Assembly: GCA_028287035.1 (NCBI GenBank)
Contig: JAQBQL010000263.1
Span: 1 to 9,730, forward strand
Direction of reading: 5' to 3'
From: Labilithrix sp.
Lineage (GTDB): Bacteria > Myxococcota > Polyangia > Polyangiales > Polyangiaceae
DNA: 9,730 nucleotides
The notes beneath the pieces were generated by a model. That model was not told the DNA's origin, did no database searches, and worked only from the letters and a program-made list of their open reading frames with translations. A program made the translations under genes and the position numbers. Position 1 is the first letter of the stretch. Every line of letters begins with the position of its first letter. Shown piece by piece: positions 3 to 9,730 of this stretch.

Positions 3-644
3 GCCTGGGTGGCGCGCCCGCTGCTCGCCGCGGCGCTTCCGCGGCGGCTCCGGATCGCGCGCGCGCGGCGGGGACCGACGTGGGCGCCACCCTGGGCAGG
101 ACCGGTCCTGCGCGCGGCAGCCCGCGAACAGAGCGAGCGGAGCATCGCGCGGGCGCTCCGCGGTGCAGGCGCCGCCGATCGGTTCGACACGCTCGCGCGC
201 GGCGCGCACCGGATCCACCTCGCCTGGTTGCGGCACCAGGAGCAGGTCGGCGGCGGGCTCGAGCGCCGCGACCCGTTCCTCGCGCCCGACCTCGCGCGGC
301 TCGTGACGGCGTGGCCACCGGCGCTGCTGCTCCACGGCGGCGTGCGCCGCGGCCTCTTCCGCGAGGCGTGTCGCGGGCTCCTGCCCGAGTCGCTGCGGAC
401 GCGCGAGGACAAGGCGAGCTTCGAGCCGGCGTTCGAGCGGTGCTTCGTCGCGAGTGACGGTCCGCGCCGGATGCGCGGCTACGCGGACCTCGCCGCGCTC
501 GCCGACCTCGGCCTCGTCGAGCCGGCGCCGTTCCGCAGCGCCTTCGAGCGCTTCGTCGCCGCTCCGAGCGTGGGCTGGGAGGACGTCTGGCCGGCGCTCG
601 CCATCGAGTCGTTCCTGAGACGCCGCGCCGAGGGCCACGCGTGA
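3..644 (+). CDS. Asparagine-synthetase-like protein, C-terminal part (probable RiPP/lasso macrolactam cyclase), 5' truncated by window edge
   Basis: The reading frame is open to the left edge, so the true start, any glutaminase domain and the PP-loop ATP-binding motif lie outside; about 213 residues are visible. The visible part matches the C-terminal end of the asparagine synthetase fold. It has an ERRDPFLAPDL segment (from about nt 261), like the conserved 'R.PFLD..L' of AsnB-type enzymes. This is followed by RRGLFREACRGLLPESLR and then R..DKASFEPAF (about nt 399-434), a signature typical of lasso-peptide cyclases (C proteins). Family members adenylate a carboxylate side chain and form an amide; in lasso synthesis this closes the macrolactam ring. 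The next two genes, a kinase and a PqqD-like protein, favour the RiPP role over free asparagine synthesis. The stop overlaps the next start (GTGA). The family call is fairly safe; the cyclase role is inferred from context. Confidence 0.8.
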   Translation, partial: AWVARPLLAAALPRRLRIARARRGPTWAPPWAGPVLRAAAREQSERSIARALRGAGAADRFDTLARGAHRIHLAWLRHQEQVGGGLERRDPFLAPDLARLVTAWPPALLLHGGVRRGLFREACRGLLPESLRTREDKASFEPAFERCFVASDGPRRMRGYADLAALADLGLVEPAPFRSAFERFVAAPSVGWEDVWPALAIESFLRRRAEGHA

Positions 645-1468
645 GCGCCGCGCACGTCGAGTGGCTCGCCCGTTACGAGGAGGACGAGGACGTGCTCTTC
701 CGGATCGGGCGCAGCGGGGACACGCTCATCGCCGAGTGGATGGGCCTCGTCACCGTGACGTCGGATGCGCGCGGGGAGGTCGTCACGACCACCGTCGCCG
801 AGGGTGCCGACCCCGAGGACGTCGAGAAGATCCGCCGCGGCGGCGCGATGCTCCTCGTTCGCCACCTGCAGGGGAAGCTCGCGCTCCACGGTGCGGCGGT
901 CGCGTTCGGCGCGGAGGCGATCGTCCTGTTGGGTCGGAGCGGCCAGGGCAAATCCACGCTCGCCGCGAGCCTCTGCGCGGCCGGAGCGTCGCTCCTCGCC
1001 GACGACGCAGTGGCGATCGATTCTGCCGGCGCGTCCTTCGTGGTGGTGCCGAGCGAGGTGAAGCACTGGCTCGATGCGCCGGCCCGCGCCGCGCTGGCCG
1101 GCGGAGCCGCTCCGCCCGACGATCGCGGCAAGGCGGCGATCGCGACGGCACGTCCGGCCGCCGGCGCAGCGCGGCTGTGCGCGTTCGTCGAGCTCGCCTT
1201 TGTCGAGGAGGACGCGCCGGCCAAGCTGGTCCGGCTCGCGCCCGGGATCGCGGCGATGGCCACGCTCGTCCCGCAGGCGGTGCGCTTCGCGGTCGACGAC
1301 CCGCGGCTGCAGCGCGCGGAGCTCGACGCGCTCGGCCGGCTCGTCGATGCGGTGCCGGTCTATCGTCTCGAGCGGCCGCGGTCGCTCGAGCGTCTCGGAG
1401 CGGCGCACCCGCTGCTGCTCTCGCTCACCGGACGTGGCCTCGAGGAACCCATGGAGAGATCGCCGTGA
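641..1468 (+). CDS. HPr kinase/phosphorylase-like P-loop kinase (RiPP-associated)
   Basis: A 275-residue protein starting at GTG, inside the GTGA overlap with the preceding stop. Residues 81-126 carry the HprK core: ALHG with His83, Walker A GRSGQGKST (98-106), and LLADDAVAI with Asp121-Asp122. These correspond to the conserved His, P-loop and catalytic-Asp region of HPr kinases. The N-terminal 80 residues are not recognisable as the usual HprK N-domain, and no HPr or PTS gene is nearby, so carbon-catabolite control is unlikely. HprK-like kinases in lasso peptide loci (paeninodin type) phosphorylate the C-terminal residue of the peptide. HprK-related kinases paired with PqqD-like proteins also occur in other proteobacterial loci of unknown role. 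A peptide substrate is inferred, not shown. The protein lacks a signal peptide and membrane segments, so it should be cytoplasmic. Confidence 0.82.
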   Translation: MSAAHVEWLARYEEDEDVLFRIGRSGDTLIAEWMGLVTVTSDARGEVVTTTVAEGADPEDVEKIRRGGAMLLVRHLQGKLALHGAAVAFGAEAIVLLGRSGQGKSTLAASLCAAGASLLADDAVAIDSAGASFVVVPSEVKHWLDAPARAALAGGAAPPDDRGKAAIATARPAAGAARLCAFVELAFVEEDAPAKLVRLAPGIAAMATLVPQAVRFAVDDPRLQRAELDALGRLVDAVPVYRLERPRSLERLGAAHPLLLSLTGRGLEEPMERSP

Positions 1469-1749
1469 CCGACGCCGTTTCGCCGCGCACCAGCGCCAGG
1501 ATCCCCGCCAACGTGTACGCCCGACCCTTCGGCGAGGAGATCGTGCTGCTCGACTTCGCGCGCGGCGAGTACTTCGGGCTCGACGAGGTGGGCGCGGCGG
1601 TGTGGCGCTCGCTCGAGTCGGGTAAGACGGTGGGAGAGACGGTCGACCTGCTCGTCGACCGCTACGACGTGGCACGCGAGGTGGCCTTCGACGATATCGT
1701 CGCGATTGTCACACACCTGGCGGCCGAATCGCTGCTCCTGCTCGCGTGA
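1465..1749 (+). CDS. PqqD/lasso B1-type RiPP recognition element protein
   Basis: A 94-residue protein starting at GTG in a GTGA overlap with the kinase stop. Residues about 25-70 give the hallmark pattern of the family: EIVLLDFARGEYFGLDEVG, then AVWRSL, a short 'GKTVGETVDLL' turn-helix, and a RYDV segment before the last helix. These small winged-helix proteins bind the leader of a ribosomal precursor peptide and present it to modifying enzymes; as stand-alone proteins in lasso loci they are called B1. The length matches the family. A longer version of the same frame runs back to nt 661, but it is only the antiphase shadow of the kinase gene; the GTG at 1465 is the first start giving a PqqD-like protein. 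The B2 protease partner is not in the window. Confidence 0.85.
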   Translation: MTDAVSPRTSARIPANVYARPFGEEIVLLDFARGEYFGLDEVGAAVWRSLESGKTVGETVDLLVDRYDVAREVAFDDIVAIVTHLAAESLLLLA

Positions 1750-1836: not shown

Positions 1837-2796
1837 ATGACCAGACTTCGCCTAATCGCGCTCGCTTCCGTCAGCCTTTCGATCGTCGCTGCGGGCTCGC
1901 TCGTCGCGTGCTCCGACGACACCTCGATCGATCCCACCGACGCGGGTGGCCTCGACACCGGAACCGATAGCGGCAAGGAGGACACCGGCGCGATCGATGG
2001 CGGCGCAGACGGCGCCGACACGGGTACGGATGCCGATGCGGGGGTGCCGATCACGCTTGCGAACGTCGCCGACGTCGTGTCCGAGCACATGTGCAATTCG
2101 TTCGCGCGCTGCTGCTTCGGCACGCCGACGCCACCCGCCGGTGGGCTCGACGGCGGCGGGTCGTTCGACCGCGCGAGCTGCCTCAGCCTGTACAACACGC
2201 TTGGCTTCGAGAACTCGAGCGTCGGTCACGACGTGTACGCGAGCGGCAACGTCGCCCTTGATCCGGCGAAGGCCGCTTCGTGCGTAGCGAAGATCGACAC
2301 CCTCAAGTGCACCCTGTCGGCGACGGACTTCCAGGACATTCGATCGACGTGTTTCTCGGCTGTCGCCGGGACTGTGAAGGTCGGAGACGCCTGCGCGAAG
2401 AGCGTTGAGTGCGCGGCCGGTCTGTTCTGCAAGCCGACTGCAGCCGGAGCACTTGCCGGCACGTGCGCCCCGCTCAAGGCGGCCGCGGAGTCCTGTTCGG
2501 ACTTCGCAGGGCAGGGTGACATTTATGGAGCGGCGCTACTTGCGGAGGAGTCTTGTTCATACCGCGGCAGCGGTACTCCGAAGCTGTTTTGCGACACCTA
2601 CGCGGACCCGTCGGATCCCGACGCGCCGCCCACGGACCCGACCACCTGGACGTGCAAGGCCGCCGGACCGGTCGGCGACCCCTGTGCCGACTCGACGTGG
2701 TGCGCGAGTGGCATCTGCGACCCGAACGGTTACCAGTGCGTCGATCCGTTCGTCTTCTTCGCGAGTGACCGCTGCGCCAAGAGCATCGTTCACTGA
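1837..2796 (+). CDS. Cysteine-rich predicted lipoprotein with Asp/Gly linker (Dickkopf-like cysteine modules)
   Basis: 319 residues starting at ATG. A basic MTRLR start, a hydrophobic stretch and a lipobox SLVAC put the lipidated cysteine at position 25, so the protein should be membrane-anchored outside the cytoplasm. Residues about 26-70 form a low-complexity spacer rich in Asp, Gly and Thr (12 Asp in 45 residues), probably a flexible stalk. The rest holds 20 further cysteines, an even number suited to disulfides. Two similar modules are visible: VGDAC..VEC..LFC (182-198) and VGDPC..WC..GIC..QC (279-301). Such Cys modules after an Asp/Gly stalk recur in myxobacterial lipoproteins of unknown function. 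The gene sits between the PqqD-like and nucleotidyltransferase genes but has no visible enzymatic motif. It may be a recent insertion or an accessory surface protein; I cannot assign a function. Confidence 0.8.
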   Translation: MTRLRLIALASVSLSIVAAGSLVACSDDTSIDPTDAGGLDTGTDSGKEDTGAIDGGADGADTGTDADAGVPITLANVADVVSEHMCNSFARCCFGTPTPPAGGLDGGGSFDRASCLSLYNTLGFENSSVGHDVYASGNVALDPAKAASCVAKIDTLKCTLSATDFQDIRSTCFSAVAGTVKVGDACAKSVECAAGLFCKPTAAGALAGTCAPLKAAAESCSDFAGQGDIYGAALLAEESCSYRGSGTPKLFCDTYADPSDPDAPPTDPTTWTCKAAGPVGDPCADSTWCASGICDPNGYQCVDPFVFFASDRCAKSIVH

Positions 2797-2820: not shown

Positions 2821-2827
2821 CGTGAGA

Positions 2828-3841
2828 GTGGCGGCCCACAGCGAGCGGCTCCTCATCGCGCTCCTCGCGTCGCCCTCGCTGTCCCTTGATCCTGCACGGA
2901 TCGAGGAGCTCCTCGCGACCGCCGAGCGTCACGGGGTAGCCGGCGTCGCTCACGAGCTCCTCGAGGCTCGTGGGGTCGTGCCGCCGGCGCTCCGCGACGA
3001 GCTCGCGCTGCGCCGGGTGGCGCGCGAGCTCGATCACGCGGCGCACATCGGAACGCTGCGCCGCATCGATGCCGCGCTCTTCGAGGCGCGCATCGACGCG
3101 GTGGTCCTGAAGGGGCCGCTCTTCGCCGAGCGCTTCTACGCGAGCCCCGCCGCGCGAGCGACGAGTGACATCGATCTCCTCGTCGCCGAGCGCGAGCTCG
3201 ATCTGGCCACGACCGCGCTCCGCGCCGCTGGCTACATGGCGTCCGCCGATCCCCACGAGGCGTGGTGGCGCGCCGAGCACCATCACATCCACCTCGAGAG
3301 CCCGGACGGGCTTCCGCTCGAGCTCCACTTCCATGCGTACCGCGGCTTCGGCGGTATCCTGCGCAGCGAGCCGCTCATCGCGCGCGGCGTCGTCGCGTCG
3401 CGACCGCCGATGAGCGCGCTCCGGGTCCTGACCGCCGAAGACGAGCTCGTGTACCTGGCCGTCCACGCCGCCGCGCACCGCTTCGTGCGGCTTGGGTGGC
3501 TCTACGATCTGGTGCTTCTCGTCGGCACCATGACCGACGCGGCGCTCGAGCGCGCGGCGCAGCGCGCCCGTCAGCTCGGGTTCGCCCGACCCCTCGCGTT
3601 TGCCGGGCAGCTCCTCGTCGAACGCTTCGGCCTCGCGCGTGCCGAGCTCCTCGGCCGACTCGGGGCCGTGCGCGCGCCCGTCGTGAGCGCGGCGGTGCAC
3701 GCGCCCGAGCAGCCGCTCTTCCGCGCCGCCACGAGCTTCGTCTATGCGGCCGCGCTGTGTGACTCGCCCTCGTCCGCCGTGCGCTACGCGACGCGGGCGA
3801 GCGCCGACCGTGCGCGCCGGCTGTTCACGGGCGAGAGGTGA
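2828..3841 (+). CDS. Nucleotidyltransferase family protein (NTP_transf_5 type)
   Basis: About 337 residues from the GTG at 2828. The core has VVLKGPL (92-98), Arg110, then SDIDLLV (113-119) with Asp114 and Asp116. GLPLELHFH (161-169) supplies the likely third acidic residue, Glu165. The spacing LKG - R - DIDLLV - E.H is the signature of the uncharacterised nucleotidyltransferase family in the pol-beta-like superfamily; the two Asp and the later acidic residue would bind metal. A later AAAHRFVRLGWLYDL helix (214-228) is also typical. Members are frequent next to HprK-like kinases and PqqD proteins in lasso-type loci. A homologue in the pseudomycoidin cluster has been linked to further tail decoration after phosphorylation (from memory). 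The stop overlaps the glycosyltransferase start (GTGA), so the two are probably made together. Substrate unknown. Confidence 0.78.
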   Translation: MAAHSERLLIALLASPSLSLDPARIEELLATAERHGVAGVAHELLEARGVVPPALRDELALRRVARELDHAAHIGTLRRIDAALFEARIDAVVLKGPLFAERFYASPAARATSDIDLLVAERELDLATTALRAAGYMASADPHEAWWRAEHHHIHLESPDGLPLELHFHAYRGFGGILRSEPLIARGVVASRPPMSALRVLTAEDELVYLAVHAAAHRFVRLGWLYDLVLLVGTMTDAALERAAQRARQLGFARPLAFAGQLLVERFGLARAELLGRLGAVRAPVVSAAVHAPEQPLFRAATSFVYAAALCDSPSSAVRYATRASADRARRLFTGER

Positions 3842-4737
3842 GCGCGCCGCGCGTCACGGTCGGCCTCCCGTTCTTCAACGAGGAGCGGTTCCTGGCGCAG
3901 GCCATCCGATCCATCTTGGCGCAGACGATGGGCGACCTCGAGCTCCTGCTCGTGGACGACGGATCCACGGATGGCTCGCTCGCGATCGCGCGAAGCTTCG
4001 CGGACCCGCGCGTGAAGGTGCTCGCCGATGGCGAGCGGCGCCACCTGCCGGCGCGGCTGAACCAGATCACCGAGCTGGCGCGCGGAGACCTCGTGGCGCG
4101 CATGGACGCCGACGACGTGGCGCACCCGCGCCGCCTCGAGCTCGAGCTCGCGGTGCTCGCTGCGGATCCTTCCATCGACGCCGTCGGCGCCTGGGTCGCG
4201 TTGACGGACGACCGCGACCACATCATCGGCGTCGTGGAGGCTGCTCCGCTGGCCAGCACGCTGGCTGCGGTGCTCGAGCGCGGGCTCATCGCGCACCCGA
4301 CGATGCTCGCGCGCCGCGGCTGGCTGCTGGCGAACCCGTACGACGAGCGCCTGACGCGCGCCGAGGACCGCGACCTCTGGTGCCGGACCGTCGCGACGTC
4401 ACGCTTCGCGGTGGTGCCGATGCCCCTCCACGTGATGCGGGTGTCCTACGAGGACCCGCGCTTCCTTGCGTCGTATCTTGCGTCGCTCGCGCAAAACCGG
4501 CGGCTCTTCCTGCGTTACCGGTCGGGCGTCGGGCTCGGCACGGCGGCCCGTCTCTGGGCGGCGGCGGCCATGAAGGGCCTCGTGATGCAGGCGGCGGTGC
4601 GGGCGGGACATACCGAGACGCTCGTGAAGCGGCGTGGCCGCGCGCCGACCGACCGCGAGCGCGTTCTCGTCGCCGAGGCACTCGCCGCCTCATGCGTTCC
4701 GGTCGCGCACGCGCATGCCGAGGATCACCGGGCGTAA
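3838..4737 (+). CDS. Family 2 glycosyltransferase (GT-A fold)
   Basis: A 299-residue protein starting at GTG in a GTGA overlap with the nucleotidyltransferase. The N-terminal half is a clear GT2 domain. It has VTVGLPFFNEERFL (6-19), the nucleotide-binding LLVDDGSTDGS (37-47), and the DXD-type metal/sugar-nucleotide site MDADDVAHPRR (89-99). HPT follows at 153-155 and AEDRDLW at 175-181, the latter including the likely catalytic acidic pair. No convincing membrane segments are present, so it probably acts in the cytoplasm or at the inner membrane face. Sugar and acceptor cannot be read from sequence; coupling to the kinase/nucleotidyltransferase block suggests glycosylation of the cluster product, though polysaccharide assembly remains possible. 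The 3' end overlaps the oppositely oriented methyltransferase by 13 bases (4725-4737). Confidence 0.87.
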   Translation: MSAPRVTVGLPFFNEERFLAQAIRSILAQTMGDLELLLVDDGSTDGSLAIARSFADPRVKVLADGERRHLPARLNQITELARGDLVARMDADDVAHPRRLELELAVLAADPSIDAVGAWVALTDDRDHIIGVVEAAPLASTLAAVLERGLIAHPTMLARRGWLLANPYDERLTRAEDRDLWCRTVATSRFAVVPMPLHVMRVSYEDPRFLASYLASLAQNRRLFLRYRSGVGLGTAARLWAAAAMKGLVMQAAVRAGHTETLVKRRGRAPTDRERVLVAEALAASCVPVAHAHAEDHRA

Positions 4738-5852
4738 CGCGACACGAGCTCGCGGGTCTCCTCGAGCAGCCTCGCGTGCCCGGGGGCGCCATCGACGCCG
4801 CCCGCCACGCGCGTGAGCTCCTCGACCGTGCGCTTTCCGTCGATCGCCTCCAGCACCGCGCGCGCGCGTGAGCCTCGCGCGCCGAGCACCGGCTGGTGGC
4901 TGCTCGACAGCCGAAGGAGCTCCGCGGGATCGGTGGGAGCTCCGAGGAACGTCGACTGCCGCTGCGTGACGCGACCACCCGCGAGCTCCGTGTCCCACGC
5001 CCAGCGATCGCCGCGCGCATCGGCACGGACGGTGACCTTCAGGCGCTCGTCACACGCGACCCGCAGCGGCTCGGCCAGAGGCAGGAACGCGCGCGCATAC
5101 GCGAGCGACCAGCCGGGCGCCGTCCGGTAACGGATGTCGTCGGTCACGTGCGCCTCGAACCAGACGACGAGCCCGTGCGCGTCACCGGCGCGGGTCACCT
5201 CGAGGTCGACGGTGCCCTCGAACGACGACGGAGGATCGACGGCGTAGTCGATGGTGGCCCACGCTCCCTCCGTCGAGAGCACGTCGCTCGCCTCGATCGG
5301 CGCCGCGCGATCGTCGTAGATGCTGTTGACGAGCGACGGCCGCAGCGCGCTCGCCCGCAGGCCGCGCATCTCGAAGCTGCGCAGGCCGGCATCGAGGCGC
5401 CGAGCGAGCGCCTCGGACTCGACGAGCTGCACGTAGAGCGTGTCGCGAAGCGGAACGAGCGTGCCGCCTGGCACGAGGAACCGCCGCCGCGCCTCGGCGA
5501 TCGCCTCGAGATGCGCGCCGTTCAGCGGGGTGTTGCCACGCAGGTCGGAGACGATGACGTCGACCCGCTCCGGCAGCGCCAGGTCGGCGAGCTCGCAGTG
5601 ATGCACCTCGATGCGGTCGGCGCACCCGTTCTCGCGCGCCAGGTCGCGAAGCAGCAGGACCGCCGGGTTGATCTCGCACGCATGAACGCGCCGCGCGCCG
5701 GCCCGAGCGGCCAGCAGGGACATGATGCCGGTGCCGGCGCCGAGGTCGAGGACGGTGCACCCGGGCGTCACGACGCGCGCGATGGCGCGGGCATACGCGT
5801 CCATGCGGACCCCGTCGCCGGCCATCCGCCCGTAGTCGAGCACCGTGTACAT
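4725..5852 (-). CDS. PRMT-like class I SAM methyltransferase with short C-terminal extension (degenerate double-E)
   Basis: 375 residues starting at ATG (5852). The start YGRMAGDGVRMDAYARAI (8-25) matches the Y..M..D..R..AY helix of protein arginine methyltransferases. VLDLGAGTGIMSLLAARAG (34-52) is SAM motif I, with acidic Glu60 after it. The PRMT double-E loop aligns with SDLRGNTPLNG, giving Asp103 and Gly112 where canonical enzymes have two Glu nine residues apart, so arginine methylation is doubtful. Residues about 195-300 look like the PRMT beta-barrel, ending in an 'AFLPLAEPLRV' segment. Residues about 325-375 (RAVLEAIDGKRTVEEL onward) form a helical, possibly winged-helix or PqqD-like tail. 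It is divergent from the ABC exporter and convergent with the glycosyltransferase. No strong Shine-Dalgarno precedes it. The fold is confident; the substrate is unknown, possibly the RiPP. Confidence 0.78.
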   Translation of the reverse strand: MYTVLDYGRMAGDGVRMDAYARAIARVVTPGCTVLDLGAGTGIMSLLAARAGARRVHACEINPAVLLLRDLARENGCADRIEVHHCELADLALPERVDVIVSDLRGNTPLNGAHLEAIAEARRRFLVPGGTLVPLRDTLYVQLVESEALARRLDAGLRSFEMRGLRASALRPSLVNSIYDDRAAPIEASDVLSTEGAWATIDYAVDPPSSFEGTVDLEVTRAGDAHGLVVWFEAHVTDDIRYRTAPGWSLAYARAFLPLAEPLRVACDERLKVTVRADARGDRWAWDTELAGGRVTQRQSTFLGAPTDPAELLRLSSSHQPVLGARGSRARAVLEAIDGKRTVEELTRVAGGVDGAPGHARLLEETRELVSRYAR

Positions 5853-5913
5853 GACGGTGGCTTAGCAGGTTTTGCCGGCTTTTCCGGGGCCGCACGATGA
5901 TAGAAACGACCTC
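5853..5913. promoter_or_regulatory. Divergent intergenic region, candidate bidirectional promoter
   Basis: This 61-base gap lies between the divergent methyltransferase (-) and ABC exporter (+) starts and must hold any promoter private to either. For the + strand, TTGCCG (5872-5877) and GATGAT (5896-5901), 18 bases apart, are each 4/6 matches to sigma70 boxes and would give a very short leader. For the - strand, TATCAT (complement of 5897-5902) is a 5/6 match to a -10 box but lacks a good -35. The two candidate -10 boxes overlap, so the two directions would compete. CCGG repeated around a 5-base spacer (5875-5887) could be a small operator. All assignments are weak. Confidence 0.35.
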
Positions 5914-7515
5914 GTGCGAAACCGCGCGACAGCGCCCGTCCGGCGGCTCCTCGCGTCACTCACTCCCGGTGCGCGGCGTCTCCTCGCGGCCGCGGTCGCC
6001 ATCGGCGTCCTGGTGCGCATCAGCGTTCTCGTGACCGCCCGCGACGTGAGCCGCAGCGAGCTGCGGGGCGCCGCGCTCGTCTCGCTCTTCGTCGCGGGTG
6101 CGCTGGCGCTCCAGCGGCTGGTCCTCGCGCGGCTCCGCGTGAGCGTGGAGTGTGACCTTCATCGCGCCGCCGCGATCGCGCTCGTAGAGGCCGACGTGCT
6201 CGCCGCGCCGGTGCCCGACCTCCAGCGGCGCGTCTTCGAGGGCGAGTGGCAGGCGCGAACCCTGCTCTCCTCGGCGCTCCCGCAGATCCTCGGTGATGCC
6301 CTCGTGTGCGTCGCGGTCGTGCCGTACGTCGCGTACGTGCTGCCCGCGCGCGTGCTCGGGGTCGCCGGAGCAGCGCTGCTCGGCGTGCTCCTCGTCGTCG
6401 TCGCGCTCCGCCGCGCGACGCAGCGCTTGCAGGCGCGCACGCTCGCTGCCGCGCAGGAGGTCTACGATCACGTGCTCGTCGGCATCGAGGGGCGCCTCGA
6501 GCTCGCGGCGCGCGGGGGCGAGGCGGAGCTGAGAGGCCGCCTCGAGGATTCGCTCGCCCGCTATGCGGCGATCGCGAACCGTACCGGGCTGCGGTCGGCG
6601 ATGGCAGGACGCGCGCCGCTCGCGGTGGGCGCCGCGATCCTGGCGGCGGCGATCGCGCTCGATCCCGGGTCGCGCGCGGCGATCGGCACGGCGCTGCTCG
6701 GAGACGCGCTCCTCCTCGCGGCGTGCCTGCCGCCGATCGTCGGGGCGGTGGTCGGCGCGCACGAGGTGTTCCGTTCGAGCGCCGTCGTGGCGCCGCTCGT
6801 GAGCGTCCTCCAGGCGGCGAGACGGCCGGAGCTCTCGCGACCGGGAGGCACGGTGATGGCGCTGCCCGCCGAGATCGTGATGGATCGCGTGAGCTTCCGC
6901 TACGAGCAGGCCCCCGTCCTCGAGGACGTGAGCATGCGCTGGTCGCCCGGACAGGTGCTCCTCGTGACCGGCGCGAACGGGGCAGGGAAGAGCACGCTCC
7001 TCTGCCTCCTCCTCGGTCTGCGCGGGCCCGCGAGCGGCGCGATCACCGTGGGCGGCGCGCCGCTCGACGCCCTCGACGTCGTCGCCTTCCGTCGCCGCGC
7101 CGTGTACCTGCCGCAGCGGCCGTACCTCGGGGAGGCGCACGTCGCGGTGCGCGACGCGATGCGAATGGCGAGGCCGACCGCCACCGACGACGAGCTCCGC
7201 GCGGCGCTCGCGCGGCTCGAGGTGCTGCGTGCGCTCGAGGCGCACGCCGAGGAGGACGCGCTCTCGGTGACGGTCGGCTCGCTCTCCGCGGGCCAGAGGC
7301 AGCGCGTGGCCTTGGCCCGGGTGCTCCTGTCGGGCGCCGCGCTCGTCGTCCTCGACGAGCCCGACGCGTATCTCGACGCGGCGGGCATCGCGCTCCTGGT
7401 CGCGCTCGTCGAGGAGCTCACCGCCTCGGGCGCGATGGTCGCCGTGGCCGCCCACTCCCCGGCCTTCGCCACCCCGAGCGCCGTGCGGGTGATGCTGGAC
7501 CCTACAGCGGGGTGA
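5914..7515 (+). CDS. ABC exporter, fused transmembrane and ATPase domains (probable RiPP exporter, D-type)
   Basis: About 533 residues from GTG 5914; an in-frame TTG at 5872 would add 14 non-hydrophobic residues and has no better ribosome binding site. The N-terminal ~300 residues hold about six hydrophobic segments (near 21-41, 52-71, 126-144, 147-166, 233-250, 260-284). The ATPase half has A-loop Tyr330, Walker A GANGAGKST (353-361), Q-loop LPQRPYL (399-405, Gln401), signature LSAGQ (457-461), Walker B ALVVLDEP (476-483) and H-loop His514. All catalytic residues are intact, and the signature has Ala instead of the usual first Gly. There is no N-terminal C39 peptidase domain, so leader removal must be done by another protein, as in lasso systems where B2 cleaves. 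The length suits a half-transporter that works as a homodimer in the inner membrane. It ends in a 14-base tail overlap with the next minus-strand gene. Confidence 0.88.
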   Translation: MRNRATAPVRRLLASLTPGARRLLAAAVAIGVLVRISVLVTARDVSRSELRGAALVSLFVAGALALQRLVLARLRVSVECDLHRAAAIALVEADVLAAPVPDLQRRVFEGEWQARTLLSSALPQILGDALVCVAVVPYVAYVLPARVLGVAGAALLGVLLVVVALRRATQRLQARTLAAAQEVYDHVLVGIEGRLELAARGGEAELRGRLEDSLARYAAIANRTGLRSAMAGRAPLAVGAAILAAAIALDPGSRAAIGTALLGDALLLAACLPPIVGAVVGAHEVFRSSAVVAPLVSVLQAARRPELSRPGGTVMALPAEIVMDRVSFRYEQAPVLEDVSMRWSPGQVLLVTGANGAGKSTLLCLLLGLRGPASGAITVGGAPLDALDVVAFRRRAVYLPQRPYLGEAHVAVRDAMRMARPTATDDELRAALARLEVLRALEAHAEEDALSVTVGSLSAGQRQRVALARVLLSGAALVVLDEPDAYLDAAGIALLVALVEELTASGAMVAVAAHSPAFATPSAVRVMLDPTAG

Positions 7516-8734
7516 CGCGCACCATCGTGGTGCCGCGGTCGTACGAGTATTCCACCTCGAAGCTCGCGTCCTTCGCGAGCTTGAAGCAGTCGAACGCCGG
7601 GAAGAGGGCGTGCGCCCAGTGGTTCGCCGGGTCGAAGTCGTCGGGGAGCGTCGACAGGATCACGTCCTCGGCGAGCTTCGCGCGGAAGGCGAGGAGGATG
7701 CCGAGGTTCTTCGTCTCGCGCGACACGGTCATGACCACGCGCGTCGCGACCCACGTCTCGAACGGGCCCGAGAAGTCGATCTCGGCGAGGAGCGTCGGCG
7801 GGCCGAGCGGCCACGTCGCAACGTCCCGCGCGTCGACCATGATGGCCTCGGTCGACGAGAGCTGGTGCGAGGCGAGGACGGAGAAGTCGAGGCCGTAGGC
7901 ATCCCGGTACCCATCGAGCTTGCCGTCGGTGAAGACGTGGCGCTCGAGGAGCGCCTGCGGGATGTCGACTGCCACCGCGTAGATCTGGATGGCGGCGGGA
8001 ATGATGCGCGCGCCCGGCGCGAGGAGGCGCCGCTTGGCATCGGCGACGATCTCGAGCAGCTGCTCGTCCAGCGGATCGTTGCCGATGGTCTCCGTGACGA
8101 GCACCGTGGCCGGCTCCGGGAGCTCGGCGCTCGTCGAGCGGCGGCGTACGAGCTCGACGCGGTCCGCGACGCCGTTCGCCTCGAACATGCGGAGCGCGAC
8201 GTCCGCGATCCCGCTCGACTCGACGGCGTACACCTTGCGCGCGCCGGCCTTGGCCGCGCCAGCCGCGAGGACCCCCGTGCCGGTGCCGATGTCGAGCACC
8301 ACGTCGTCCGGCTTCACGGTCTGCCGGAGCGCGTGGAGGAAGCCCCTCGTCCGCGTCAGGTCGTCGAGCATCGAGAGGTGCACGTTCGGGCGCACCCAGC
8401 CGCGCGTCGCCTCTTCGCCGCGATCGGCCGGGTCGACGAGCACGCCGCGATCGGCGAGATCGGCGATGCACGTCGCGAGCTCGACCCAGTGCTCGGTGCC
8501 CGAGGCGGGGAGCGACGCCATGACCTCCTTCACCGTGCGCGGCACGGAGAAGGCGTCGAGGATGGTCATCGCCACGCGCGGGGCCAGGTGGCGCTCGCCA
8601 TAGAGCTCGATGCCGACCTCGTCCTCGTTGGTGAGGCGGACGAGGACGTCCTGGGCGCGCACGAGGGTCTGGTCGGGAAGGGTGAAATCGGCGCCAGCCG
8701 CATCGCTGGTCACCGCTGCCTGGGGGTCGGTCAC
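7502..8734 (-). CDS. PRMT-like SAM methyltransferase with N-terminal PqqD-like (RRE-like) domain
   Basis: 410 residues from GTG 8734, 27 bases after the stop of the upstream membrane-protein gene. Residues about 25-100 resemble a PqqD/RRE-type winged helix: VLVRLTNEDEVGIELYGERH, then a 'ILDAFSVPRTVKEVM' turn-helix and a final helix ending ADLADRGVLV. The methyltransferase domain follows: ML.DLTRTRGF (122-132), SAM motif I VLDIGTGTGVLAAGAAKAG (146-164), and Glu172 at the end of beta2. The double-E loop TETIGNDPLDE retains Glu215 and Glu224 nine residues apart with the central Gly, as in true PRMTs. The C-terminal half (about 250-410) has beta-barrel-like content. A fused leader-binding-like domain suggests it recruits its own peptide substrate. 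Target residue unknown: arginine is suggested by the Glu pair, but bacterial relatives are poorly characterised. It is a diverged paralogue of the methyltransferase at 4725-5852. Confidence 0.8.
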   Translation of the reverse strand: MTDPQAAVTSDAAGADFTLPDQTLVRAQDVLVRLTNEDEVGIELYGERHLAPRVAMTILDAFSVPRTVKEVMASLPASGTEHWVELATCIADLADRGVLVDPADRGEEATRGWVRPNVHLSMLDDLTRTRGFLHALRQTVKPDDVVLDIGTGTGVLAAGAAKAGARKVYAVESSGIADVALRMFEANGVADRVELVRRRSTSAELPEPATVLVTETIGNDPLDEQLLEIVADAKRRLLAPGARIIPAAIQIYAVAVDIPQALLERHVFTDGKLDGYRDAYGLDFSVLASHQLSSTEAIMVDARDVATWPLGPPTLLAEIDFSGPFETWVATRVVMTVSRETKNLGILLAFRAKLAEDVILSTLPDDFDPANHWAHALFPAFDCFKLAKDASFEVEYSYDRGTTMVRVTPL

Positions 8735-8748
8735 GGGGCGACCATAGC

Positions 8749-8769
8749 AAAAAGGCGCTCGTCAGCGAG
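8749..8769 (-). terminator. Weak candidate terminator or attenuator between the membrane-protein and methyltransferase genes
   Basis: Reading the minus strand, CTCG-CTGA-CGAG can form a 4-bp stem with a 4-base loop, followed by GCGCC and five T's. An alternative 4-bp pairing (CGCT/AGCG) uses the same bases. The hairpin overlaps the membrane-protein stop codon. The stem is short for an intrinsic terminator, so partial attenuation or chance is likely. Confidence 0.2.
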
Positions 8770-9730
8770 ACTCGACCGCCGGACAGCTCGCGGTCACGGG
8801 CGCGTTCGTGCTGGGCCGGGTCGTGACGTTCTCGGGCGCTCCGTACGCGGCGATGAGGGCGAAGTGCTCGTACGCGCACGGCGTGAGCTCGAGGGCGCGA
8901 GCTCCTTCCTCGCGGAGGACGCGTCCGCGCGCGACCTGCGGGCCGCGCAGCTCGTGCTCGGCCCGGCCCGGGACGTCGCGGAAGCCGCGCGTGCTGGTCA
9001 CCCCCCACGCCGCGCACACGACCGCGACCGCCGCGGCGCGCAGGCGTCGGCCGCGCATGTCGGCGGCGGCGAACGTTGCGCCGAGCGCGTCGACCACCGC
9101 GAAGGCGAGGACGAAGGTGATCGCGAGCAGCGGGCGCTCCGCATGGTGCGCCGGCGACCCGTCATGCACGTTGCCGTACGCGAGAAAGGCGAGCTGGCCC
9201 GCCGCGCATGCGAGCGGCACCGCCCAGCGCGCAGCGAGCTCGCGGCGCGCGGCGCTCCCCCACAGCGCGAAGCCCGCCAGAACCATCCCCAGCACGACGT
9301 CGAAGCGCATCCCGACCAGGAGACGCGGGTAGAGGAGCAGCGACGCGACGGGGTCGGTGCTTCCTTCCCCGATCGCGCGCTTGAACCGCGACACCCGCGC
9401 GAAGAAGTGGAGCGCGTCGCCGTGGGCGTGGCGGTTCCACGCCAGCCACGCGAGAGGCCCGGCGATCGCGAGAAGCGCGCATGCCGCCAGCACCACGCTG
9501 CGCTGCCGGACCGCGCGCCACGTGACGACCACCGCGAGCACCGCTGCCACGGGCCACGGCTCGTACCGGGAGAGGCACGCCGCGAGCAGCGCGATCGCGA
9601 AGCCGACCCGGGCGCGCGCCGGCGTGGCATTCGCGCCGAGCGCGATCGCGGCCGCCGCCGTGGCGCTCGCCGTGAACGACTCGGGCACCGTGGAGGCGCC
9701 GAGCCACACGCTCCAGGGCGCGAGGAGCGC
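8762..9730 (-). CDS. Polytopic membrane protein, GT-C glycosyltransferase-like, N-terminus beyond window edge
   Basis: The frame is open to the right edge; about 322 residues are visible and an in-frame GTG at 9709 is probably internal. The sequence is strongly hydrophobic with several membrane helices. It shows landmarks seen in GT-C/PMT-type transferases: a WLGASTVPES segment (9-18 of the visible part), LSRYEPWP (53-60), then a 'WLAWNRHAHGDALHFF' loop and later HHAERPLLAI. Enzymes of this superfamily move sugars from lipid-phosphate donors to acceptors on the outer face of the inner membrane. The usual catalytic Asp lies in the first periplasmic loop, which would be outside the window, so activity cannot be judged. 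The C-terminal ~90 residues are soluble with two Cys. It is co-directional with, and 27 bases upstream of, the methyltransferase at 7502-8734, so they may share a transcript. Whether it belongs to the peptide cluster is open. Confidence 0.65.
   Translation of the reverse strand, partial: ALLAPWSVWLGASTVPESFTASATAAAAIALGANATPARARVGFAIALLAACLSRYEPWPVAAVLAVVVTWRAVRQRSVVLAACALLAIAGPLAWLAWNRHAHGDALHFFARVSRFKRAIGEGSTDPVASLLLYPRLLVGMRFDVVLGMVLAGFALWGSAARRELAARWAVPLACAAGQLAFLAYGNVHDGSPAHHAERPLLAITFVLAFAVVDALGATFAAADMRGRRLRAAAVAVVCAAWGVTSTRGFRDVPGRAEHELRGPQVARGRVLREEGARALELTPCAYEHFALIAAYGAPENVTTRPSTNAPVTASCPAVESR

Follow-up and report, generated by a model that had tools for sequence, protein, structure and literature searches.

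The window analysed here, a whole stretch of 9,730 nucleotides from Labilithrix sp., carries on its reverse strand a gene (7502..8734, read from 8734 to 7502, with a GTG start) whose 410-amino-acid product joins two domains. The first has the fold of PqqD and of RiPP recognition elements (RREs; RiPPs are ribosomally synthesized and post-translationally modified peptides), and the second is that of a protein arginine methyltransferase (PRMT). According to the predicted model and to profile and structure matches, the RRE-like domain occupies roughly residues 22-100 (8435..8671, reverse strand), where a three-stranded sheet is followed by three helices. Residues 115-410 (7505..8392, reverse strand) form a PRMT Rossmann domain and a PRMT_C-like barrel, as assigned by Pfam and by sequence and structure matches. 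Three PRMT features lie on the same strand within this region: motif I for S-adenosylmethionine (SAM) binding, VLDIGTGTG, at residues 146-154 (8273..8299; by alignment), the double-E loop from Glu215 to Glu224 (8063..8092; alignment and sequence) and NHW at residues 371-373, which takes the position of the PRMT THW loop (7616..7624; sequence match and alignment). AlphaFold2 modelled the protein at a predicted local distance difference test (pLDDT) score of 91.4 from an alignment of 45 rows, i.e., the window protein and 44 homologues (43-78% identity) picked from the best 120 of 348 matches. A preliminary description had proposed a PqqD-like domain fused to a PRMT-fold methyltransferase; both halves are upheld by sequence, Foldseek, profile and predicted fold, and it is almost certain that the fusion (type A below) is real.

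The PRMT homology of the fusion is well beyond chance. Among solved structures, the best matches by sequence search were PRMT7 (E 4e-22) and PRMT6 (E 1.2e-21), and the Foldseek rows listed for the model are PRMT7, PRMT6, PRMT3 and a type I PRMT, with a best E of 1.7e-22 (PRMT7). The C-terminal barrel, or dimerisation part, is present, since the Foldseek alignment spans 322 columns; Pfam reports only methyltransferase models and PRMT_C at 20.6 bits, under that family's cut-off of 27. In PRMTs, the double-E pair grips the guanidinium group of arginine. Glu215 (codon at 8092-8090) and Glu224 (8065-8063) lie in the local sequence VLVTETIGNDPLDEQL, nine residues apart and with an intervening glycine (Gly218), exactly as first described, and these three residues are unchanged in 45/45 aligned rows. 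The same is true of I149-G154 and E172, which represent SAM motif I and the post-I acid. When 22 fusion rows are considered, both Glu residues are kept in all of them (a degenerate tandem copy at locus L120 being set aside), and at the THW-loop position W is found in 22/22 and H in 18/22, with S in the remaining 4. Locus L120, in genome G091, has tandem fusion copies (8510-9739 and 9645-10871), of which the first is degenerate at the Glu pair and is perhaps a pseudoenzyme partner.

The N-terminal domain is more divergent. Pfam did not match PqqD in any of 20 N-termini, and that of the window fusion matches no Pfam family, so we rejected its assignment as a plain PqqD by Pfam. Its fold is nevertheless predicted, at a pLDDT of 90, as three strands followed by three helices, and its structure matches are headed by the RREs of MccB, TigE, NisB and PbtF. 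Aligned to the PqqD profile, the N-terminal alignment scored 23.4 over 81 columns, above all of 400 column shuffles (maximum 20.3). The hhalign probability of this match was only 23.5%, and it was 0.4% for the full 45-row alignment, such that the match is visible with the N-terminal alignment alone. Given the predicted fold, this region is an RRE/PqqD-fold domain that may bind a leader peptide, and the earlier proposal that the first 100 or so residues resemble an RRE is borne out by the model, the RRE-led structure matches and the shuffle-beating profile score. The RREs of the lasso peptide protein TbiB1 (a B1) and of PqqD, MccB, NisB and PbtF share this fold over 78-87 aligned residues; however, their identity to the fusion N-terminus is low (7-18%), and here the domain is joined to a PRMT.

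To place the fusion in its genomic context, 183 genomes of the host's order (hereafter "the order") were surveyed, with ten candidates scored per genome. We counted as fusions the 19 best matches (E 2e-200 to 2e-75), which occur in 18 genomes. Two further proteins with an N-terminal extension, at loci L121 and L122 (G009 and G099; E around 1e-49), were left out. Ten of the 19 fusions (in G001:C434, G002, G128, G003, G103, G121, G162, G084, G163 and G091) lie at most 11 kb from an Asn_synthase gene, which encodes a lasso-type cyclase, together with genes for PqqD (B1) and/or the leader peptidase B2. In 7 of these 10 cases a B2 gene lies close to the fusion, although in G103 it scores under the Pfam cut-off. 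A further 7/19 either sit on short contigs (4.3-7.5 kb) or, in G085, border the end of a contig, with a precursor gene adjoining. The strongest single pieces of context are genes that are close or overlap: at L116 the precursor stop and the earliest possible PRMT start (TTG, 10763) share 4 bases, at L118 the first PRMT start (GTG) is 24 bases past the precursor stop, and at L113 the fusion stop and the PqqD start share the 4 bases ATGA. Within the order, it is very likely that the fusion serves lasso-type pathways.

Some of these clusters contain a second PRMT-fold protein (type B), which is encoded in the window at 4725..5852 on the reverse strand and was assigned by Pfam and alignment. It has no N-terminal RRE (hhalign probability against PqqD, 2%), and its double-E pair is lost (DLRGNTPLNG in the window). 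The type-B motif is D-x-R-G, with D103 and R105 unchanged in 34/34 rows. In 10/10 type-B rows from the loci the first Glu is replaced by Asp, and a single row, L107, retains the second. An eleventh row scored as type B, the archaeal L010, keeps both Glu residues and falls outside the type-B group. We therefore rejected the idea that all cluster PRMTs are one enzyme. On the tree, one actinobacterial row groups with 20 type-A rows (Shimodaira-Hasegawa-like approximate likelihood-ratio test support, 97), and the 10 type-B rows form a group of their own (99). The distant rows L121 and L122 fall outside the type-A group, which means that the fused proteins, taken together, do not form a single branch. 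The actinobacterial PRMT inside the fusion clade (L004:4181-5191) lacks an RRE in its frame. Type B is also found near lasso-type genes without a fusion, in G119, G131 and G150-G152.

An all-against-all search of small open reading frames (ORFs) recovered a family of lasso precursors, with a leader of the form YxxPxL...GSV..LT followed by a core with Asp or Glu at position 8 or 9. Such precursors are present in 15/18 fusion genomes, 10 of which have them on the same contig as the fusion, and none were found in the remaining ones, G091, G075 and G105. For comparison, 61 control loci were scanned for the precursor motif; only 10 have precursors, and the control set is therefore small. Genomes were considered PRMT-free if they had no match at E 1e-20 in the order survey and no match at E 1e-12 within the locus. 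The set excludes G099, since it encodes a distant PRMT, unlinked and with an RRE-like N-terminus, at L122. An arginine in the tail, i.e., after the ring-forming acid, occurs in 14/15 fusion genomes versus 3/9 PRMT-free genomes (Fisher p 0.0037), and arginine makes up 33/262 versus 4/140 core residues, respectively. Among the 20 residue types, it is arginine that best separates the two sets, and arginine is the residue that a PRMT predicts. Counted by clade, with groups assigned by eye on the basis of tree and precursors, the proportions are 7/7 versus 2/7 (p 0.02). In the count by genome, adding G099 to the PRMT-free set gives p 0.0017. A suggestive case is G163, a fusion genome with tails GGLGLQRSS and GNLGQQRS, compared with GGAGLQPA and GGGLQPTP in G164 and G165, which have no PRMT match in the order survey. 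The main count leaves out the second clusters of G151 and G152 and the genomes with type B only (G131, G119 and G150). Arginine is present in the former, under a looser motif, as well as in G119 and G150, and the core of G131 has neither Arg nor Lys.

Other genes accompany the fusion in the window. On the forward strand, an asparagine-synthase-like, and thus lasso cyclase-like, gene (3..644; PF00733, 6e-11) is cut by the window edge to its C-terminal part. It is followed by an HPr-kinase-like protein that is likely a peptide kinase (641..1468), which scores under curated cut-offs and in whose sequence the lasso-kinase motif residues H, K and DD can be read, and by a free-standing PqqD/RRE resembling lasso B1 (1465..1749; PF05402, 4.5e-17). 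Further along the strand are a Cys-rich lipoprotein (1837..2796), identified by eye and, through neighbourhood comparison, as conserved beside the PqqD gene; an NTP_transf_5 nucleotidyltransferase (2822..3841) and a GT2 glycosyltransferase (3838..4737), both from Pfam; and an ATP-binding cassette (ABC) exporter with ATPase and membrane part (5872..7515; Pfam and NCBIfam). A conserved neighbour on the reverse strand (8762..9730) is probably a membrane glycosyltransferase, as judged by eye, with no family match. Lasso-specific NCBIfam models score under their cut-offs on the window's cyclase-like and B1-like proteins. Ten window genes recur elsewhere: all 10 in L102, 9 in L104 (whose cyclase sits just past the compared region), 8 in L107 (with no NTP_transf_5 or GT2 match) and 7 in L111. 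Near the cluster, we recognised by eye tpi (L102, L104, L107 and L111), pgk (L102, L104 and L111) and gap (L102 and L104). The Cys-rich lipoprotein is doubled in L111 (13226-14059 and 14213-15034). The cyclase frame of L102 is short (463 amino acids), with no N-terminal glutaminase-type domain by Pfam. A PhyH-type dioxygenase beside the precursor or type-B PRMT gene (L107:1566-2465 and L102:14063-15244) is a possible source of further tailoring. The clusters of L102, L104, L107 and L126 are lasso-like, without a recognisable B2 leader peptidase.

Taken together, the reading that we consider most probable, with some reserve, is that an RRE-guided PRMT N-methylates an arginine in the tail of the lasso precursor. 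In this scheme, the N-terminal RRE would bind the conserved leader of the precursor, as free-standing B1/PqqD proteins do, and the PRMT domain would bind SAM via motif I. Glu215 and Glu224 would then clamp the guanidinium of the core's C-terminal tail arginine, whose omega nitrogens would receive either one methyl group or two. The residues for the latter two binding steps are present. Judging from gene content, the asparagine-synthase-like enzyme would close the ring, further groups would come from the HprK-like kinase, the nucleotidyltransferase and the glycosyltransferases, and export of the product would fall to the ABC protein. Tailoring most likely precedes ring closure, since the precursor still carries its leader at that stage. 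The preliminary description had likewise envisaged a leader-guided PRMT acting on a ribosomal peptide; the folds, the Glu pair and the lasso linkage within the order stand in its favour, and the methylation itself we infer. A fuller version would hold that the enzyme converts an arginine of a lasso or lasso-like peptide to omega-N-methylarginine, and that the window's lineage lost the standard leader peptidase and uses the altered second PRMT, possibly as a heterodimer partner. To this combination we give an even chance.

It is important to consider the observations that weigh against methylation of a tail arginine. Once corrected for the 20 residue types, the p value of 0.0037 would no longer be significant. 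The association is weaker when the type-B and other left-out clusters are added (p 0.014-0.021) and when only same-contig precursors are used (9/10 versus 3/9, p 0.02). There is also an exception, G002, whose core GSPSGGQMDGTPGAKKP has Lys-Lys and no Arg, yet whose enzyme keeps both Glu residues. This core, with KK in place of KR, fits a rival explanation in which the precursor is tailored elsewhere (at Lys, Asp/Glu, the C-terminal carboxylate, Ser, or a backbone or N-terminal nitrogen) by a re-purposed PRMT fold, such that the arginine pattern is coincidental. So does the replacement of the THW-loop T by N in the window fusion, and the lasso methylations known from the available text of two papers are indeed at the C-terminal carboxylate and the ring Asp (PMC9266682, PMC13352647). 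However, it is arginine that separates fusion-bearing from PRMT-free clusters best, and the Glu pair has been lost from type B, the relative that accompanies the fusion in part of these clusters. In the fusions this guanidinium-gripping pair is unchanged, and we consider tailoring at another position unlikely.

A different set of observations concerns the tie to lasso genes. Two of the 19 fusions, G001:C162 and G175:C668, are on longer contigs away from lasso genes. The first contig measures 26 kb, of which 5 kb flanks the fusion on one side, and the second 90 kb; both genomes carry a lasso-type cluster elsewhere. The unlinked copy in G001 (L103:9702-11069) is the closest relative of the window fusion in the searched genomes, at 71% identity. 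The window's own precursor is absent from the window, which cuts the cyclase gene and has 0 candidate small ORFs outside genes; in its relatives L102, L107 and L126 the precursor adjoins the cyclase. A B2 match is present in 10/18 fusion genomes. None was found in the window or genome-wide in its relatives G001, G002, G128 and G133, and for this reason we call the window's cluster lasso-like and not standard lasso. A hidden B2 in these relatives was rejected, given a best tblastn E of 0.004 over 42 residues and a best hmmsearch E of 1.3 with a profile built from seven B2s. Beyond the order, a phylum-wide sample of 377 genomes (at most 4 candidates scored in each) contains further PRMTs with sequence ahead of the PRMT domain. 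Seven of their N-termini, when aligned, are related to that of the window fusion (probability 97.7%) and are not recognisable as PqqD (score 15.6). The lasso precursor motif was found in 0/13 outside-order loci from 12 genomes (five of the contigs being under 6.5 kb) and B2 in 0/12 of the genomes. The fusion thus probably predates its lasso use or extends beyond it, and this is our main reason for caution. A PqqD-family match lies elsewhere in the genome in 6/12. The only gene family common to at least three of 12 outside-order loci (L228-L239) is the PRMT. The preliminary description had asked whether homologues always sit next to RiPP genes: 10 of the 12 resolvable fusions in the order sit beside lasso genes, and the idea that the fusion is lasso-bound everywhere is rejected, as no such link was found in the 13 loci outside the order. 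There, the ground for refutation named in that description, homologues that mostly lack RiPP neighbours, partly applies. These outside-order loci, in eight of which the neighbours look non-RiPP by eye among the gene lists examined, would agree with the N-terminal domain being a relic and the enzyme methylating a cellular protein, e.g., for self-protection, with its location in lasso clusters secondary; the unlinked paralogue in G001 would too. Against this stand the lasso linkage in several lineages, the close or overlapping precursor-PRMT and PRMT-PqqD genes and the co-variation of arginine with the fusion, and we regard the relic explanation as improbable. An unrelated winged helix at the N-terminus, its likeness to PqqD being a coincidence of a common fold, seems very improbable: the low hhalign probability stands beside RRE-led structure matches and a profile score above every shuffle.

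The preferred reading, arginine methylation of a lasso precursor, may be compared with known systems. Most of what is known of arginine methylation comes from eukaryotic PRMTs, which carry other accessory domains where the fusion has its RRE. PRMT1, PRMT3, PRMT6 and PRMT7 share with the fusion the Rossmann domain and barrel, motif I, the double-E spacing of nine and the His-Trp of the THW loop. However, identity in the Foldseek rows is about 21-26%, and the fusion gene sits in a peptide biosynthesis cluster. Lasso clusters are described, in the available portions of the literature, as having SAM-dependent methyltransferases of the StspM/LasF type and the aspartimide-forming LihM type; these methylate a carboxylate of the C-terminus or the ring Asp, StspM was modelled on mitomycin-7-O-methyltransferase, and the same portions mention neither an RRE fusion nor a double-E pair. 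The paeninodin lasso cluster has an HprK-like kinase (PadeK), as does the window, and that of pseudomycoidin has a kinase and a nucleotidyltransferase (PsmK and PsmN), again as in the window, but the available text describes no PRMT in either (PMC9266682). Their kinases use a terminal Ser, whereas 11/16 cores here end in another residue. The plantazolicin enzyme PznL/BamL also methylates an arginine of a RiPP, but by alpha-N-dimethylation and not on the guanidine, as far as the available text indicates (PMC11285071). RRE-glycosyltransferase fusions are mentioned in the available parts of the RRE and lasso literature, and RRE-PRMT fusions are not (PMC7470986, PMC12710340, PMC11285071, PMC13352647, PMC9266682, PMC10036551); in particular, the latter were not found in those of the RRE-Finder papers (PMC7470986, PMC12710340). 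Among the titles and abstracts listed from the open PubMed Central literature (subscription papers being outside its scope), none concerns a lasso peptide with a PRMT or RRE-PRMT enzyme, and the matches listed include no description of omega-N-methylarginine in any ribosomal peptide. The fusion had been described as not known to be well characterised, and the same titles and abstracts agree with this.

The presence of the fusion among lasso genes suggests a putative bacterial route to methylate arginine on a ribosomal peptide. Nature offers a comparison for its study, in clusters with and without the enzyme and in active-looking type A beside type B without the Glu pair. If the proposed activity is true, an RRE-steered bacterial PRMT would permit site-directed arginine methylation of designed peptides, and a new modification would be added to those of lasso peptides.

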